Positions 13,858 through 21,716 of a stretch of 64,000 nucleotides of DNA are shown piece by piece. Every line of letters starts with the position of its first letter. The stretch's first letter is position 1. The position numbers and the translations under genes are program-made. The DNA is taken from NCBI RefSeq assembly GCF_022447245.1, contig NZ_JAKVBC010000013.1, positions 1 through 64,000 of the forward strand. Reading direction: 5' to 3'. Origin of the DNA: Kordia sp. GTDB taxonomy: Bacteria > Bacteroidota > Bacteroidia > Flavobacteriales > Flavobacteriaceae. The notes beneath the pieces were generated by a model. That model was not told where the DNA came from and did not search any database. It was given only the letters and a program-made list of their open reading frames with translations.

Positions 13858-15135
13858 TTAGTTTATTGCAGTTATTGGTGCTTCCTCTATTGGAAGCTCT
13901 ATTTGAATACCATCTAATTGCTGTTTTAATGGCTTAATGAATTCTAAATAAGATTCTTTTAGTTTTAAATCTATCGGATCTGCATCTGGTAGTTTTTGTT
14001 TGAATGGATCTACCTGACGTCCATTTTTCCAGAAACGATAACATACGTGTGGCCCAGAAGTGTTTCCGGTCATTCCAACCCAACCAATGACGTCTCCTTG
14101 TTTTACAAATTCACCTACTTTTGCCTTTCGCTTACTCATATGCAAATATTGTGTGGTGTACGTGCTGTTGTGTTTTACCTTGACATAGTTTCCGTTTCCT
14201 CCTCTACGCGCAGATTCAACCACAACACCGTTTGCTGTTGAAATGATTGGCGTTCCTATTGGCGCGGCAAAATCAGTTCCTTTGTGTGGTCGGATACGAT
14301 TTCCGTATAGCTTGATACGTCTGCGCAAATTGTAACGCGATGATATACGAACATGTTTGTAACGCACAGGCGCTTTTAAGAAAGCACGACGTAAGTTTTT
14401 AGCATTTTCATCATAAAAGTCCACAATTTGCTTTACACTATCAGTTTCAAATTCAAAGGCATAAAACGGTTCTCCATTGTGCTTGAAATACGCCGCATGG
14501 ATTTTATCAATTCCCACGTAAGTGGTATCATTTATATATTTTTCAGTATAGATTAACTTAAATTCATCTCCTTTTTGCAGTCTAAAAAAGTCAATTGTCC
14601 ACGCATAAATATCAGACATATTATACGCCAGTAGCTGACTTAAACCAGCATCATCTAACGAAGCTGACAAAGAACTTAGAATAACTCCTGAAGCTTCTTT
14701 TTCAACAATTTTTACAGGTTTGCTTTCCTTATAGGCATTGATAGAGTCTTTAAAATTGATAACGACATAGTCAATACTATTTTCTTGATAGATGAAACAT
14801 TCTGGTCGTTGAAGCGAATCACCTTTTGTACATAAAAGTGTATAGGGTTTTCCCGCTTTTAATTTTGTAATGTCAAACGTGTCTTTCGTTTTTTCGGCTA
14901 TTTGAAAGATTTTTGAGTAGCCAATATGATTTTTTCCTAATATCTCACCAAAACTATCACCACTTCGTACCGTATCTCGCACCACAACATAGTCATTTAG
15001 ATGGAATCCAAATTCCATCGGATCAGGCGCTGCCGCTTCAACTTGTACAATTTCTTTTTCGTTTTTCTTTTCGCCAGAACATGCGTAAAGAGCTACTAAT
15101 AAGAGTGTAAGCAGTGTGATTTTAGCTATTTTCAT
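13858..15135 (-). CDS. M23 family metallopeptidase (murein endopeptidase-like lipoprotein)
   Basis: A 425-residue envelope protein. The start at 15133-15135 is chosen because it begins a lipoprotein signal (MKIAKITLLTLLLVALYAC, lipobox ending in Cys19) and overlaps the stop of the upstream dioxygenase by four bases (ATGA); the open frame further upstream adds only unlikely residues. A SH3-like/OapA-type middle region is followed by the LytM domain. His284 and Asp288 of the HxxxD motif are present (HKGTDFAAP). The second zinc motif, normally HxH, reads His363-Val-Cys365 (GPHVCYRF), so a zinc ligand is Cys if the enzyme is active. It is expected to cut peptidoglycan cross-links. Confidence 0.9.
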   Translation of the reverse strand: MKIAKITLLTLLLVALYACSGEKKNEKEIVQVEAAAPDPMEFGFHLNDYVVVRDTVRSGDSFGEILGKNHIGYSKIFQIAEKTKDTFDITKLKAGKPYTLLCTKGDSLQRPECFIYQENSIDYVVINFKDSINAYKESKPVKIVEKEASGVILSSLSASLDDAGLSQLLAYNMSDIYAWTIDFFRLQKGDEFKLIYTEKYINDTTYVGIDKIHAAYFKHNGEPFYAFEFETDSVKQIVDFYDENAKNLRRAFLKAPVRYKHVRISSRYNLRRRIKLYGNRIRPHKGTDFAAPIGTPIISTANGVVVESARRGGNGNYVKVKHNSTYTTQYLHMSKRKAKVGEFVKQGDVIGWVGMTGNTSGPHVCYRFWKNGRQVDPFKQKLPDADPIDLKLKESYLEFIKPLKQQLDGIQIELPIEEAPITAIN

Positions 15136-16097
15136 TGTTTTCTTTCTGTATTGAAGATATGGTCTACCCATTCTTTTCCCCATTCGCCTTTTTCATTTTC
15201 GCTCCAAATTTCGGGAAAAAAGATCACTTTTTGAAAACTTGGAGGCAAGTATTCTCTCCAATTTGTTCCTCCAGTGGCTTCAATGGTCTTTTTTTCGCGT
15301 CTTAAATAGCGATATGCTGAGCCCATGTGCATAAGTGGCCAATTGACATTTGCATTGAGGTCTAGCTGTTTTAGGGCTTCAATTAAATTCTTATTTTCTT
15401 TTACCTGTTCAGGCAACGCTAAATAGCGGTGATATATTGTGCTGTGTTGTACTTCTGCAGCAATTCTCATGAAACGTGGTGTGTAACGATACTCAAATTG
15501 TTTGAGTGTTAAAGTTTTTTCGCCTGTTTTGCTATCGGTTGCCCCTTTTTTCCAGTAGATATTTTCATAAAGATCATCTAAAGAGTTGTCTGCTGAAAAT
15601 TGATCACGTACGGTATGATGTACTAAGTTTTCCACAGGTGTTGCATACAATTCAATCATTCGGTACTGCGCTGATTGAAATCCACTTGCTGGCAACAGAG
15701 ACATTCTGTAGTTTAAGAATTGCTCTCTTTCCATTCCATTAATCATGATTTCAAAAGAGGAAATTAATGCTTTAAAATAATTGTTTATTCTATGGATGCG
15801 CTCTGTAAAAAACTTTGCTGTTTGATCTTTGTCGTCAATAATTTGTTTTTGTTCGTGTATGATCAACTTAAAGTATAGTTCTGTAATTTGATGATACATG
15901 ATAAAGATTTCCTCATCAGGAAAAAAGGTACGTGGAATTTGTAGACTTAGTAAGGTATCTAAGTGAATATATTCCCAATATGTTAGATATCGCTGGTGCA
16001 ATAAGCCATCGAGATATGAGCCTAAGTCCTGTCCTGAATTTGTATATTTTTTGTCTAATTTTTCAATTCGCTCTGCAATTTCTGGGGAAATTTTCAT
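15132..16097 (-). CDS. tryptophan 2,3-dioxygenase family protein (paralogue 1)
   Basis: A 321-residue all-helical haem dioxygenase-type protein, started at the ATG 16095-16097 (MKISPEIAERIEKL); 16 further codons upstream are open but do not align with its paralogue at 17960. Family features include FIMYHQITELYFKLII with the distal-His position, SGFQSAQYRMIEL, and EATGGTNWREYL near the C terminus. Known members open the indole ring of tryptophan to N-formylkynurenine. No other kynurenine gene is nearby; the gene is translationally coupled to an M23 peptidase and pgi, so tryptophan catabolism is not assured. It follows DUF3108 by 94 bases. Confidence 0.85.
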   Translation of the reverse strand: MKISPEIAERIEKLDKKYTNSGQDLGSYLDGLLHQRYLTYWEYIHLDTLLSLQIPRTFFPDEEIFIMYHQITELYFKLIIHEQKQIIDDKDQTAKFFTERIHRINNYFKALISSFEIMINGMEREQFLNYRMSLLPASGFQSAQYRMIELYATPVENLVHHTVRDQFSADNSLDDLYENIYWKKGATDSKTGEKTLTLKQFEYRYTPRFMRIAAEVQHSTIYHRYLALPEQVKENKNLIEALKQLDLNANVNWPLMHMGSAYRYLRREKKTIEATGGTNWREYLPPSFQKVIFFPEIWSENEKGEWGKEWVDHIFNTERKQ

Positions 16098-16191
16098 CTG
16101 CTTATTTTTATTTTCGGGATGTATCAGATGAGATTTGCCTTGCAACCTAGTTGAGTATTAACAAATGATTGTTGCGGCTCATTTCACGCTC

Positions 16192-17389: not shown

Positions 17390-17502
17390 AAAATAAAGAA
17401 GCTCGATCTTACGACCGAGCTCTTTATTTATTAACCAACCAAAACTTTAAATTATGAAAATCTCTCTTCTTAAAGTTGCAAAAGGAAACCACTCACTTTT
17501 GC
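17390..17502 (-). ncRNA. candidate small RNA, copy 1 of a tandem pair
   Basis: On the minus strand a -7 box TATATTTG (17507-17514) is followed by about 110 bases conserved with copy 2, ending in a GC-rich hairpin (AGCTCG/CGAGCT, 17400-17421) and a T-rich tail. The transcript would open with the short palindrome TTTGCAGTGCAAA. The -33 position reads TAG where copy 2 has TTG, so this copy may be weaker. Ends are estimated from box and hairpin. A 27-codon frame on the opposite strand (17454-17537) covers the same bases; see findings. Confidence 0.6.
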
Positions 17503-17506
17503 ACTG

Positions 17507-17514
17507 CAAATATA
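17507..17514 (-). promoter_or_regulatory. -7 box of small RNA copy 1
   Basis: TATATTTG on the minus strand matches TAnnTTTG. TTTAACACAA on the plus strand lies 36 bases beyond it, at the same distance as in copy 2. Confidence 0.6.
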
Positions 17515-17598
17515 GAACGAGAATTTTATTATGCTAGCATAGTATTTCATTTTAACACAATTTTTATATTCAAAGATGTATTTTGTCGATTTTTAATA

Positions 17599-17610
17599 TT
17601 GAATATTCAA
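17599..17610. promoter_or_regulatory. palindrome upstream of small RNA copy 1
   Basis: TTGAATATTCAA, a perfect 12-base palindrome, 85 bases beyond the -7 box. The same palindrome occurs at the same distance from copy 2. Possible operator; no regulator is known. Confidence 0.45.
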
Positions 17611-17674
17611 CACTTTTTAGTTTTTATTGATGATTTCTCAATAAAAACACACCTACTTCTACAAAAAGAGGTCA

Positions 17675-17788
17675 TAAAAAAAGCTCGATCTTACGATCGA
17701 GCTCTCTTTTTATTTATTAACCAACCAAAACTTTAAATTATGAAAATCTCTCTTCTTAAAGTTGCAAAAGGAAACCACTCGCTTTTGC
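17675..17788 (-). ncRNA. candidate small RNA, copy 2 of a tandem pair
   Basis: Leftward transcript unit with a consensus Bacteroidota promoter (TTG, 19-base spacer, TATATTTG at 17793-17822) and a perfect terminator: nine-base stem AGCTCGATC/GATCGAGCT around TTAC (17682-17703) followed on the minus strand by seven T. The body of about 110 bases matches copy 1. No family was identified by reading; a Bacteroidota RNA family such as those found by comparative searches is possible. It lies downstream of the tryptophan dioxygenase paralogue but has its own promoter, so it is not simply a 3' UTR. Confidence 0.68.
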
Positions 17789-17792
17789 ACTG

Positions 17793-17822
17793 CAAATATA
17801 AAACGAGCTTTACATTGTGCAA
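17793..17822 (-). promoter_or_regulatory. promoter of small RNA copy 2
   Basis: On the minus strand TTG (17820-17822), 19 bases, then TATATTTG (17793-17800). This is the best-matching promoter seen in the window. Confidence 0.7.
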
Positions 17823-17883
17823 TCACAGTAGTTGACTTTAACACAATTATTACATTTAAACATGTATTTCATCGATTATTATT

Positions 17884-17897
17884 ATTGAATATTCAAT
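17884..17897. promoter_or_regulatory. palindrome upstream of small RNA copy 2
   Basis: ATTGAATATTCAAT, a perfect 14-base palindrome whose core matches the one at 17599-17610 and which sits at the same 85-base distance from the -7 box. Confidence 0.45.
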
Positions 17898-17959
17898 GAT
17901 TATTTGTTTTTTATAAGAAATGTGCAACTTTTTAGATTTTAAAGCGTTGGTTTTCTAGG

Positions 17960-18904
17960 TTATTTTAGTGTTTTATAGCCTTCTAAGTTGGTAATTCCCC
18001 AATTTTCAAGTTCTTCTTCGCTCCAAAGTGCTGGAAAGAAAATCCTTTTTTGATATTTTGGATGCATATATTTCTGCCAATCGCTTCCGCCTGTAGCTTC
18101 CGAATTTCCTTGATTTGAGTTTATATACTTTGCTGCTGCATTGTAATGATGCATTACCCAACTAATATTTACCGTATGATCATAATGACGCATAGCATTA
18201 ATGAGTGAAGTATCATTTTGATATTCTCTTGGTAATTGCTTGAATTTTGTCCACAAATTGATGGTATTGTATTCTTTCATCCAAGAAATGAGTTCTTTTT
18301 TATATTTTTCATCAAAGTTGACCATCAATTTACTACGCTTGCCAGTTTTATGATCATGTCCTGCGACTTGCCAGTACATATTGTTATATGCATGCAAATA
18401 CGGTGTTTCACGATCAATGGTAGCTCTAAATCTATAATCAATTAAGTTGATAAGTTCGGTAGAAGCAATTTCTATCTTTCGGTATTGTGCTGATTGAAAC
18501 CCACTGGCAGGTGTTAAGGTATCACGGAATTTCATGTACTGTTCAACCTCCATTCCATCTCCCATAATTTCAAAAGAATTGGACAGTAAATCAAAATAGC
18601 GACTGATACGCATTAAATGCATTACGAACTTTTCTGGTACAATGTTTTCTGTATGCGAAATTTGCTTCATTTCCCACAAAATCATCTTAAAAACCAATTC
18701 ATTTACCTGATGATACATGATAAATACCATTTCATCTGGCAATTGTGTACGTTGCGTTTGTAATCCTAAGAGTGCATCTACTTGAATAAAGTCCCAATAT
18801 TTCATGGGTTCAGCATATAATAATCCTGAAAGGTGTACATCAGGATCTTGTCCCATATCCAAATATTTTTTGTCTATGGCAGCGAGTAATTCTTCTCTGG
18901 TCAT
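17960..18904 (-). CDS. tryptophan 2,3-dioxygenase family protein (paralogue 2)
   Basis: A 314-residue haem dioxygenase-type protein started at the ATG 18902-18904 (MTREELLAAIDKKY); the 12 upstream codons rich in Asn are unlikely. It keeps FIMYHQVNELVFKMIL with the distal-His position, SGFQSAQYRKIEI, WVMHHYNAAAKYI and EATGGSDWQKYM. It lies 81 bases after 4-hydroxyphenylpyruvate dioxygenase in the same direction, though a hairpin (18931-18968) separates them. The company of hppD and hmgA makes aromatic amino acid catabolism its likely role, more so than for the paralogue at 15132. Confidence 0.88.
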   Translation of the reverse strand: MTREELLAAIDKKYLDMGQDPDVHLSGLLYAEPMKYWDFIQVDALLGLQTQRTQLPDEMVFIMYHQVNELVFKMILWEMKQISHTENIVPEKFVMHLMRISRYFDLLSNSFEIMGDGMEVEQYMKFRDTLTPASGFQSAQYRKIEIASTELINLIDYRFRATIDRETPYLHAYNNMYWQVAGHDHKTGKRSKLMVNFDEKYKKELISWMKEYNTINLWTKFKQLPREYQNDTSLINAMRHYDHTVNISWVMHHYNAAAKYINSNQGNSEATGGSDWQKYMHPKYQKRIFFPALWSEEELENWGITNLEGYKTLK

Positions 18905-18930
18905 GTTGTTGTTGTTTTGAAGAGAAAATA

Positions 18931-18968
18931 AAAAACGCACACTTCGACTCCGCTCAGTGTACGTTTTT
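18931..18968. terminator. hairpin between hppD and the tryptophan dioxygenase gene
   Basis: AAAAACG-ACACT pairs with AGTGT-CGTTTTT (one mismatch) around TCGACTCCGCTC. Runs of A and T flank both sides, so it can end transcripts in either direction. It begins 17 bases after the hppD stop. The loop carries a short motif that recurs near 53768 and 61547. Confidence 0.65.
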
Positions 18969-18984
18969 GATAGTTTTTATGTTT

Positions 18985-20148
18985 TTATAACGTTCCGCGT
19001 GCAGCTTGCTCTCTTTCAATAGCTTCAAAGAGTGCTTTAAAGTTTCCTACACCGAACGATTGCGCACCTTTACGTTGAATGATTTCAAAGAACATCGTTG
19101 GTCGGTCTACAATGGTTTTGGTAAACAACTGTAATAAGTATCCTTCTTCATCACGGTCAATTAAGATTCCATGCTTTTTTAGTTCTTCCACATCTTCATC
19201 AATATCTCCAACTCTTTCTAATAAGTCATCATAGTACGTCTCTGGAACATATAAGAATTCCACACCACGTTCGCGCATTTGCGAAACCGTTTCGATAATA
19301 TTATCTGTTGCAACAGCAATATGCTGCACACCTGGACCATTGTAAAAGTCTAAATATTCTTCAATTTGCGATTTCTTTTTTCCTTCTGCCGGTTCGTTGA
19401 TTGGGAATTTGATACGTCCATTACCATTACTCATTACTTTACTCATCAACGCTGTGTAATCTGTAGAAATGTCATCGTCAGTAAAAGAAATGATTTGCGC
19501 AAATCCCATTACTTTCGCATAAAACTCACACCATTCTTGCATTTCTCCCCAACCTACATTTCCTACCATGTGATCGATAAATTTTAATCCTACTGGTGTT
19601 GGATTGTAGTGAGATTCCCATTTTTGATAGCCTGGTAAAAAGATTCCGTTATAGTTTTTACGCTCTATAAAAAGATGCACTGTTTCTCCATATGTGTAAA
19701 TTCCTGAACGCACTACATATCCGTTTTCATCTTCTTCTTTCGTAGGTTCCATATATGGTTTTGCACCTCTTTTGGTAGTTTCTTCAAAAGCTTTTGTTGC
19801 ATCTTCTACCCAAAGTGCAACTACTTTTACACCATCGCCATGTAAATCGATATGCTCATTGATTTCACCTCCTTTTCCCAGTGGAGTTGTCAATACCAAT
19901 CTAATTTTATCTTGTTTTAATACATACGAAACTCTGTCTTTCATTCCTGTTTCTAAACCTGCATAGGCTTCTGATTGAAAACCAAAAGCAGTTTTGTAGA
20001 AATGTGCAGATTGTTTTGCGTTTCCAACATATAATTCCACATAGTCAGTTCCTAACAACGGAAGAAAGTCTTCTGCTTCTTCAAATAATTTTTTGAGTCC
20101 GTATTCTGTATTTTGTAAGTCCTTTAAATTTTTTATTTCTGCTGCCAT
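18985..20148 (-). CDS. hppD: 4-hydroxyphenylpyruvate dioxygenase
   Basis: A 387-residue Fe(II) enzyme that converts 4-hydroxyphenylpyruvate to homogentisate, the second step of tyrosine breakdown. Two vicinal-oxygen-chelate domains are visible: the first from about residue 33 (LGTDYVELYVGNAKQSAHFY), the catalytic second from about 185 (FIDHMVGNVG with an iron-binding His). GPGVQHIAVATDNI supplies the second His and TMFFEIIQRKGAQSFGVGNF the Glu and the closing Phe-rich helix. Length matches bacterial enzymes. The homogentisate-consuming enzyme is encoded just upstream at 20277, so product and substrate genes are paired. Confidence 0.95.
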   Translation of the reverse strand: MAAEIKNLKDLQNTEYGLKKLFEEAEDFLPLLGTDYVELYVGNAKQSAHFYKTAFGFQSEAYAGLETGMKDRVSYVLKQDKIRLVLTTPLGKGGEINEHIDLHGDGVKVVALWVEDATKAFEETTKRGAKPYMEPTKEEDENGYVVRSGIYTYGETVHLFIERKNYNGIFLPGYQKWESHYNPTPVGLKFIDHMVGNVGWGEMQEWCEFYAKVMGFAQIISFTDDDISTDYTALMSKVMSNGNGRIKFPINEPAEGKKKSQIEEYLDFYNGPGVQHIAVATDNIIETVSQMRERGVEFLYVPETYYDDLLERVGDIDEDVEELKKHGILIDRDEEGYLLQLFTKTIVDRPTMFFEIIQRKGAQSFGVGNFKALFEAIEREQAARGTL

Positions 20149-20276: not shown

Positions 20277-21434
20277 TTATTCTAACCAAGATTTAAAATA
20301 ATCTTCATCAGCAATTTTCATAGCTTCTTCTGTCACTTGCAATGGCTTGAAAGTATCTACCATCACTGCTAATTCTTCGGTTTCTGTTTGACCAATACTG
20401 CGTTCTACTGCTCCAGGATGTGGTCCGTGAGGAATCCCAGCAGGATGTAATGAAATGTGACCAGCATCAATATCATTTCTGCTCATAAAATCACCATCTA
20501 CATAATATAAAACCTCATCACTATCAATATTACTGTGATTGTATGGTGCTGGAATACTTTCTGGATGATAATCGTAGAGTCTTGGCACAAAAGAACATAC
20601 TACAAAAGCATCTGTCTCAAAAGTTTGATGCACTGGTGGCGGTTGATGAATACGCCCTGTAATAGGTTCAAAATCATGGATTGAAAAGGCGTACGGATAG
20701 TTGTAACCATCGTATCCAATTACATCAAAAGGATGCGTAGCGTATACCATTTCAAAAATGTCTCCTTGTTTTTTTACTTTGATTAAAAAGTCTCCTTTCT
20801 CATCATTCGTTTCTAGTTCGTACGGTCTTCTAATATCGCGTTCACAGAATGGCGAATGTTCTAACAATTGTCCAAACCAGTTACGGTAGCGTTTTGGTGT
20901 ATATATTGGTCGATACGACTCTACGATGAATAATCGGTTATCGTCTGTATCGAAATCTATTTTGTAAATAATTCCGCGTGGCACTAATAGATAATCTCCA
21001 TATTTAAAATCAAGATTTCCGAGCATTGTACGGAGTTTTCCTGTTCCTTTATGGATAAATATTAATTCGTCAGCGTCTGTATTTTTATAAAAATAATCAC
21101 GAGTAGATTCTTGCGGAGCTGCCAAAATGATGTTACAATCACTATTGGTCAATACTACTTTTCTACTTTCTAAATAATCTGCTTCTGGTGGCACTTGAAA
21201 TCCGCGAAAGCGATACGATTGCATATTATTTGCTTTAGCAATTGTAGGTTTTACACTGTATTGCTTGCGTATTTCTTTGACTTGTGTTGGTCTGTGTTCG
21301 TGGTAGCTGTTGGTAGACATTCCATCAAAACCGATGGTTCCAAACAATTGTTCGTAATATAAATCGCCGTTTGGCTTTCTAAAAATGGTATGACGTTTTG
21401 GTGGAATATTTCCTAATTTATGGTAAAAAGGCAT
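20277..21434 (-). CDS. hmgA: homogentisate 1,2-dioxygenase
   Basis: A 385-residue cupin-type Fe(II) dioxygenase that opens the ring of homogentisate to maleylacetoacetate. The start at 21432-21434 (MPFYHKLGNIPPKRHTIF) is typical; the longer open frame adds a non-conserved N terminus. Characteristic blocks are GFDGMSTNSYHEHRPTQV, GDYLLVPRGIIYKI, and ISLHPAGIPHGPHPGAVERS near residue 340 with the metal and active-site His residues. It is shorter than the about 430-residue proteobacterial form, as I expect for Bacteroidota. It precedes hppD by 128 bases on the same strand. No maleylacetoacetate isomerase or fumarylacetoacetase gene is in the window. Confidence 0.93.
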   Translation of the reverse strand: MPFYHKLGNIPPKRHTIFRKPNGDLYYEQLFGTIGFDGMSTNSYHEHRPTQVKEIRKQYSVKPTIAKANNMQSYRFRGFQVPPEADYLESRKVVLTNSDCNIILAAPQESTRDYFYKNTDADELIFIHKGTGKLRTMLGNLDFKYGDYLLVPRGIIYKIDFDTDDNRLFIVESYRPIYTPKRYRNWFGQLLEHSPFCERDIRRPYELETNDEKGDFLIKVKKQGDIFEMVYATHPFDVIGYDGYNYPYAFSIHDFEPITGRIHQPPPVHQTFETDAFVVCSFVPRLYDYHPESIPAPYNHSNIDSDEVLYYVDGDFMSRNDIDAGHISLHPAGIPHGPHPGAVERSIGQTETEELAVMVDTFKPLQVTEEAMKIADEDYFKSWLE

Positions 21435-21716
21435 AGTGTTATTTTTTTGTAATCGTAAAATTGATGTAAAAAGATATAGAAAAATGTGATGAATTGAGTT
21501 CACATTTAGCAAAAAAACAACGCTTTCTTATTCAGGATTTCGCTTGATAAGATAGTGTAAATGCGCTAATAAGTCGTTCCAAAAAGGTTTCACTTGTATA
21601 AATTTAGCAGATGATTTTTCTTCATCTGTACACAAATATCGTAATTATTTGGAGATTTTTTATGATTGAAGTCATGTTTGACCTTTTTTCTGCATAAAAT
21701 CAAGCAATTTTCAACC

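Follow-up and report, generated by a model that had tools for sequence, protein, structure and literature searches.

The window analysed here, 64,000 nucleotides from the genome of a Kordia species, contains a block (17390-17800) built of two minus-strand units. Each unit comprises a TATATTTG box, a three-hairpin RNA body of roughly 115 nt, and an intrinsic terminator. Copy 2 (17676..17791; about 116 nt, with the 5' end placed from the promoter) scores 139.1 bits against the covariance model described below; copy 1 (17390..17505) shares 94% identity with copy 2 across the query and scores 133.8 bits. The tandem duplication proposed in a first-pass annotation is borne out by two direct repeats: 17420-17625 with 17706-17911 (206 nt, 87% identity, spacing 286), and 17395-17442 with 17677-17724 (48 nt, 85% identity).

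The individual elements described in that annotation are likewise all present in the sequence. On the minus strand, TATATTTG forms the -7 box of copy 2 (17793..17800) and of copy 1 (17507..17514). The -33 element of copy 2 is a TTG (17820..17822), 19 nt before the -7 box; at the corresponding position, copy 1 has TAG (17534-17536). Farther upstream on the same strand are GTTAAAGT in copy 2 (17835..17842) and its counterpart GTTAAAAT in copy 1 (17549..17556), each 42 nt before the -7 box, a spacing common to other copies. (Over the whole window GTTAAAGT is not in excess: 3 occurrences versus 4.2 expected.)

Both units end in a minus-strand terminator hairpin: in copy 1 at 17399..17422, identified by a terminator scan; in copy 2 at 17682..17703, identified from sequence and fold, with a perfect 9-bp stem. 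The scan of the window returned both hairpins (2 found versus 0.2 expected in shuffles), that of copy 2 on the plus strand only. Open reading frames of 86, 44, and 45 residues are present in the block.

Two paralogous tryptophan-2,3-dioxygenase-family genes (15132-16145 and 17960-18940, by Pfam) flank a DUF3108 gene and the sRNA pair. Beside the locus are an HPPD-like gene (18985-20148) and a homogentisate dioxygenase gene (20277-21512), also by Pfam; in the former, glyoxalase domains score above the Pfam cut-off, and the HPPD model itself reaches 21.8 bits against a cut-off of 27.

Conservation and structure of the RNA

The sRNA gene is present in all 11 Kordia genomes examined, in 22 complete copies: three in G009, one in G010, and two in every other genome, with an extra 31-nt fragment at a contig edge in G004. 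The distance between copies is a few hundred bases, or 4.3 kb in G003. In the alignment of these copies the RNA is nearly fixed, the terminator is variable, and the promoter is conserved. The loss of TTG from copy 1, noted in the first-pass annotation, is a rare one, since 20 of the 22 copies retain it; the other loss is in the G010 copy.

No Rfam family reaches threshold in the window. A covariance model of the 22 Kordia copies found matches in 206 of 397 family genomes at E<=0.01, with E-values that are rough and chance matches among the weak end; 92 of the 397 reached E<1e-8 by hand count, three of them Kordia. Among the matches listed from the open-licence literature, there is no description of this RNA.

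A core of about 30 nt, UUUUCAUAAUUUAAAGUUU(U)GGUUGGUUAWU, hardly varies. It lies on the minus strand at 17717..17746 in copy 2, where alignment and pairing tests mark it as complementary to a leader plus start codon, and at 17431..17460 in copy 1, by pattern match. Outside Kordia, the 27 loci that score best against the model contain 28 copies, and 27 of these have the core unaltered. Its pattern also identifies at least 120 named loci, in Arenibacter, Maribacter, Zobellia, Muricauda, Robiginitalea, Cellulophaga, Galbibacter, Capnocytophaga, and others; these loci were chosen by the core and so carry no information on its constancy. When 55 of them were run through the model, 58 matches resulted at E<=1e-7.

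Both window copies fold far better than shuffled sequences on the RNA strand (z -4.95 for copy 2, -5.70 for copy 1), and the plus strand folds equally well against shuffles (z -5.79 and -7.35). Folding alone thus does not pick the strand, which was chosen from the promoter elements and the U-tract.

The compensatory changes sought by the first-pass annotation are abundant in the wider family. Across the 58 model matches (55 distinct), 98.3% of cells pair, and two-sided changes occur in 18 of 28 pairs (13.0 in shuffles) and 226 cells (56.2 in shuffles), in an alignment that was fitted to the covariance model and is hence biased in favor of covariation. This signal collapses once partners are slid by one column. 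A MAFFT alignment of the Kordia copies only gives two-sided changes in 6 pairs and 12 cells (1.9 and 2.0 in shuffles). Compensation is seen at 8 of 10 pairs in helix 1, whose hairpin contains a conserved GUGGU, and at 10 of 10 in the terminator. Helix 2 overlaps the core; it has no two-sided change among the 58 matches, and covariation therefore gives it no support. The minimum-energy structures of the two window copies lengthen helix 2 by partial pairing of UUUUC with GAAGA, which tells against the start-codon pairing proposed below; the consensus fold leaves the UUUUC loop of hairpin 2 open.

Neighbors and promoters

The order of genes around the RNA is widely kept. A DUF3108 gene in the same orientation begins no more than 1.5 kb downstream in 96 of the 99 named loci among the matches listed (by tblastn with the window proteins in loci of up to 8 kb, counting DUF3108 only where enough sequence was present); the distance from core to DUF3108 ATG has a median of 159 nt over 108 of the loci listed. 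Upstream, also among the matches listed, an HPPD-like gene or dioxygenase ends within 1.5 kb in 49 of 97 named loci, and the HPPD-like gene is found in 53 of 120.

This arrangement invites a different reading of the RNA, as a cis-acting leader (an attenuator or riboswitch) of the DUF3108-dioxygenase operon instead of a free sRNA. The short distance to the gene is what such a leader would have, and a terminator ahead of the gene suits attenuation. Moreover, TAnnTTTG occurs between sRNA and DUF3108 in only 13 of 108 loci among the matches listed. The gap often holds another element, however: TTTGG[AT][AG]-N5-9-TTGTTT lies within 160 nt after the core in 84 of 115 loci among the matches listed, versus 0 of 514 control windows, and could perhaps be the DUF3108 operon's own promoter, possibly an RpoN-like one. 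Since the core is fixed but each of the 10 terminator-stem pairs varies, no conserved antiterminator can pair with the terminator. Nor does a leader account well for tandem copies that each have a promoter and a terminator, or for the G003 copy that lies 4.3 kb from the other and not beside DUF3108. As a partner of the core, the DUF3108 start region shows no excess over shuffles (27 of 60 as good). A cis-acting leader is, in our judgment, quite unlikely.

The promoter elements indicate the direction of the gene. Of 114 named loci among the matches listed, 96 have GTTAAARt and 86 have TAnnTTTG, versus 5 and 34, respectively, of 508 control windows; in 72 of the 73 listed loci with both, they are spaced by 41-43 nt. 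In Kordia, GTTAAARt precedes the -7 box by 42-43 nt in 22 of 22 copies. In Flavobacterium psychrophilum, TAnnTTTG has been described as the consensus for sigma-A (PMC9723704). TTG at -33 was found in 19 of 86 named loci among the matches listed; with TTG so scarce outside Kordia, the sRNA promoter there probably depends on an activator at GTTAAARt.

The same elements bear on a reading in which the gene lies on the opposite strand. In the window, the plus strand reads a leader, ATG, and about 30 codons (ATGAAAATCTCTCTTC...), such that the hairpin might be the leader of a small-peptide gene. Among the matches listed, at least 25 codons are kept in 12 of 120 named loci, but a stop follows within 8 codons in 96 of 120. 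The stem changes are compensatory, and it is on the minus strand that TAnnTTTG and GTTAAARt keep their fixed spacing. The peptide gene was rejected, since the frame from the core ATG is not kept; we give it almost no credence. The first-pass annotation had called the block free of protein genes and had named codon conservation on the opposite strand as one observation that would count against an RNA; the former claim agrees with these results, and the latter pattern was not found across the named loci listed.

The RNA gene is thus real, conserved, and non-coding, and judged from its sequence it may well encode an antisense regulator used throughout the family. Features generally looked for in antisense sRNAs are present at this level: its own promoter, an intrinsic terminator, and no conserved open reading frame, together with a fixed seed in a variable, covarying scaffold.

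Complementarity of the core to start regions

Taken as its reverse complement, the core reads UUAACCAACC-N12/13-AUGAAAA. This suggests a model, to which we assign a probability of about two in three, in which a trans-acting non-coding sRNA with its own promoter and terminator uses its core to pair with the leader and AUG of target mRNAs and blocks their translation. We infer that the two copies are separate genes, each read leftward from a housekeeping promoter and ended by a terminator of its own. The loop of hairpin 2 would display UUUUCAU (anti-AUG), and GGUUGGUUAAU would lie in single strand after the hairpin; the two could pair in register with an A/C/U-rich leader and the start codon (UUAACCAACC...AUGAAAA), keeping ribosomes off the mRNA. 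Likely targets family-wide include SusC-type outer-membrane transporters; the window's genome in addition encodes a large family of lanthipeptide-like precursors, whose leaders fit the same core. Paralogous trans-acting sRNAs in tandem, as the first-pass annotation read the block, remain the best interpretation, with regulation as their candidate function.

Pairing tests, with start codons assigned by rule, lend statistical support to a match between the core and start regions, as well as the leaders of SusC and precursor genes. A 464-kb sample of the window's genome supplied 316 genes; for the 250 of them used in a first test, core complementarity peaks at start codons. All 316 genes give -10.73, versus -9.17 for shuffles, a value that 0 of 60 full shuffles reach. 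If UUUUCAU is held fixed, 11 of 60 shuffles reach it (3 of 60 when the difference from an upstream control is scored), so this general complementarity comes mostly from the anti-start loop and is not specific. A weaker excess appears inside genes, from +60 to +105 (4 of 60 shuffles).

Precursor leaders show more. NF038153, a model for class I lanthipeptide leaders, has 101 matches at E<=1 in the window's genome, 20 of them above the curated cut-off. From a first set of 30 precursors with loci, 28 had usable starts (L440 and L454 were dropped); their leaders average -14.94 kcal/mol, and 0 of 300 shuffled sRNAs with the anti-start loop kept are as low. Leaders of 40 other precursors, with weaker matches, average -14.55 kcal/mol (0 of 200 sRNA shuffles; 0 of 60 leader shuffles). 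For 44 other AUGAAAA genes, 19 of 200 sRNA shuffles and 0 of 60 leader shuffles do as well; the gain over shuffled leaders is 3.3 kcal/mol for the 40 precursors versus 0.7 for these other genes.

SusC leaders behave similarly. Thirty of them from six genomes give -14.29 (2 of 200 sRNA shuffles; 1 of 60 leader shuffles). A further 40, from G031 and G152, give -15.39 versus -11.30 for 320 background genes; 4 of 100 sRNA shuffles and 0 of 40 leader shuffles match the SusC value, and 86 of 100 sRNA shuffles match that of the background genes. Beyond shuffled controls, the precursor excess is the stronger. Against genes that start with AUGAAA(A) the margins are smaller, with p-values of 2.5e-4 (28 precursors), 0.004 (40 precursors), and 0.014 (40 SusC) that are too good, because both precursors and SusC genes are paralogous families and their leaders are not independent.

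At E<=0.01, NF038153 has 37 matches in the window's genome and 3, all in one genome, among 34 non-Kordia genomes. Precursors are thus nearly absent from these non-Kordia genomes and cannot explain an old core; SusC-like or other targets must. In the window's genome (G000), many of the lanthipeptide-like precursors (L439-L508) share a G-poor leader before the ATG; the precursor frames L102, L442, and L446 look interrupted.

A single, highly complementary target was also considered and rejected. Allowing 3 mismatches, a search of 38 genomes gave 29 sites, 27 of which are sRNA cores; the two others precede genes for a 367-residue repeat protein (L157) and a lanthipeptide-like precursor (L158). 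(In 20 of the 38 genomes the pattern missed the genome's own sRNA, because the core there lacks one U.) A shorter core searched in 30 genomes gave 31 sites, every one an sRNA core.

Sortilin/Vps10-type genes (Pfam) in Kordia (L389-L399) have ACCAACC just before the ATG in 8 of 11 genomes, in a count for which the G001 start was misplaced. They were rejected as a target: among the 19 other-genus orthologues in the matches listed, only L417 has AACCAACC, and L418 has AACCAAC. Further candidates with core sites, from 20 sites chosen among the matches listed, are presumably esterase, MFS, and permease genes.

A near-perfect target is absent from the genomes searched and the core is far longer than a typical seed, as might be expected if the RNA played a structural part or titrated a protein (like 6S or CsrB), with its core maintained for that protein and its match to leaders a by-product of their A-richness. 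GUGGU, conserved in hairpin 1, would fit such a role, and the sRNA FopS itself binds a protein, RbpB (PMC11697453). Yet the complementarity in both target classes disappears when the sRNA or the leaders are shuffled with their composition preserved, and the anti-AUG and anti-leader parts are ordered as in FopS. We consider a structural or titrating role unlikely, and prefer an sRNA that pairs with start regions.

To our knowledge, a function is known for few sRNAs of Bacteroidota other than those of Bacteroides. In the sea, polymers are degraded to a large extent by Flavobacteriaceae. A one-locus sRNA gene present in many genera, with a fixed anti-start-codon core, would offer a handle on post-transcriptional control of nutrient transporters.

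Known sRNAs provide parallels in design. FopS (RF04319) of Bacteroides, as described in PMC11697453, blocks translation at susC start codons and is bound by RbpB, an RRM-1 protein. Like the RNA described here it occurs as paralogs, and its UUUUUCAU ... GGUUAAUAAA followed by the terminator aligns in order with the core: the FopS consensus opens with GUGUUUUUCAU and continues with GGUUAAuAAA, the order found in Kordia. The Kordia RNA nonetheless scores 24.2 bits against the FopS model, whose gathering score is 56. FopS comprises a single-stranded 5' part and one terminator, whereas the Kordia RNA has three hairpins, two of them upstream of the terminator; and FopS is present in 12-15 copies per genome in Bacteroidaceae (PMC11697453), versus 1-3 per Kordia genome. 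By analogy, the RNA may work like FopS; homology to FopS is established by neither score nor fold.

GibS (RF04182), also of Bacteroides, acts as a repressor through a conserved seed that base-pairs at start codons, in the translation initiation regions of its targets; this RNA of about 145 nt is mostly unfolded (PMC7366714), unlike the Kordia RNA, which scores 26.2 bits against a gathering score of 115. The likeness to FopS and GibS raises the question of whether a design that combines anti-start and anti-leader parts is ancestral in the phylum or evolved twice.

Rfp18 of F. psychrophilum resembles the Kordia RNA by description only: a Flavobacteriaceae sRNA with strong predicted structure, conserved beyond the species. 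Its reported pairing region, however, is the third stem-loop; in an Rfp18 mutant, two metalloprotease mRNAs fall (PMC9723704). The best raw Rfam score belongs to MicC (RF00121), at 36.5 bits (E 0.0012) or 35.7 bits (E 0.00034); far under its gathering score of 90, this was taken as chance. Membership in a known Rfam family was rejected, all low-stringency matches (45 and 44 rows) being below gathering.

A palindrome over the Kordia promoter

Kordia copies have a palindrome, TACTATGCTTGCATARTA or variants, over the -33 region. In copy 1 of the window the operator-like element is TACTATGCTAGCATAATA (17527..17544, minus strand; pattern and Kordia alignment); the diverged palindrome of copy 2, TACTGTGATTGCACAATG (17813..17830, minus strand), was missed by the pattern and identified from sequence and alignment. 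As a family-wide feature the MarR-type palindrome was rejected: the strict pattern is present in only 5 of 114 named loci among the matches listed, a set with two Kordia loci.

Elsewhere in the window's genome, six further sites match the palindrome with up to 2 mismatches; with up to 3, there are 20+14 matches versus 8+7 for the reversed pattern. Five of the six have named downstream genes (from Pfam on the first 110 residues); for the sixth, L048, Pfam assigned no function. L047 precedes a MarR gene followed by a 3-hydroxyacyl-CoA dehydrogenase gene; L049, an ETF subunit gene; L052, an FMN oxidoreductase gene; L051, a gene for a chalcone-isomerase-like protein; and L050, a gene for a FadL-like protein (below the Pfam cut-off). 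Together these six sites outline a candidate Kordia regulon for fatty acids. The sRNA promoter of Kordia is probably under the control of a MarR-type regulator of fatty-acid degradation as well, through the putative operator over the -33 region.

A bolder scenario joins these threads, and we offer it tentatively, as possible rather than probable. An old SusC-repressing sRNA would have become, in Kordia, a switch for dozens, perhaps a hundred, precursor genes, their leaders having been drawn to the core. The MarR-type operator would tie the promoter to fatty-acid degradation, and thereby couple peptide secondary metabolism to carbon source. The sRNA might then serve Kordia as a single switch for a large peptide repertoire.

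Sites like TACTATGC-NN-GCATAGTA are at G000:C9:54171, C12:95730, C12:197465, C64:3358, C78:151469, and C78:51302.
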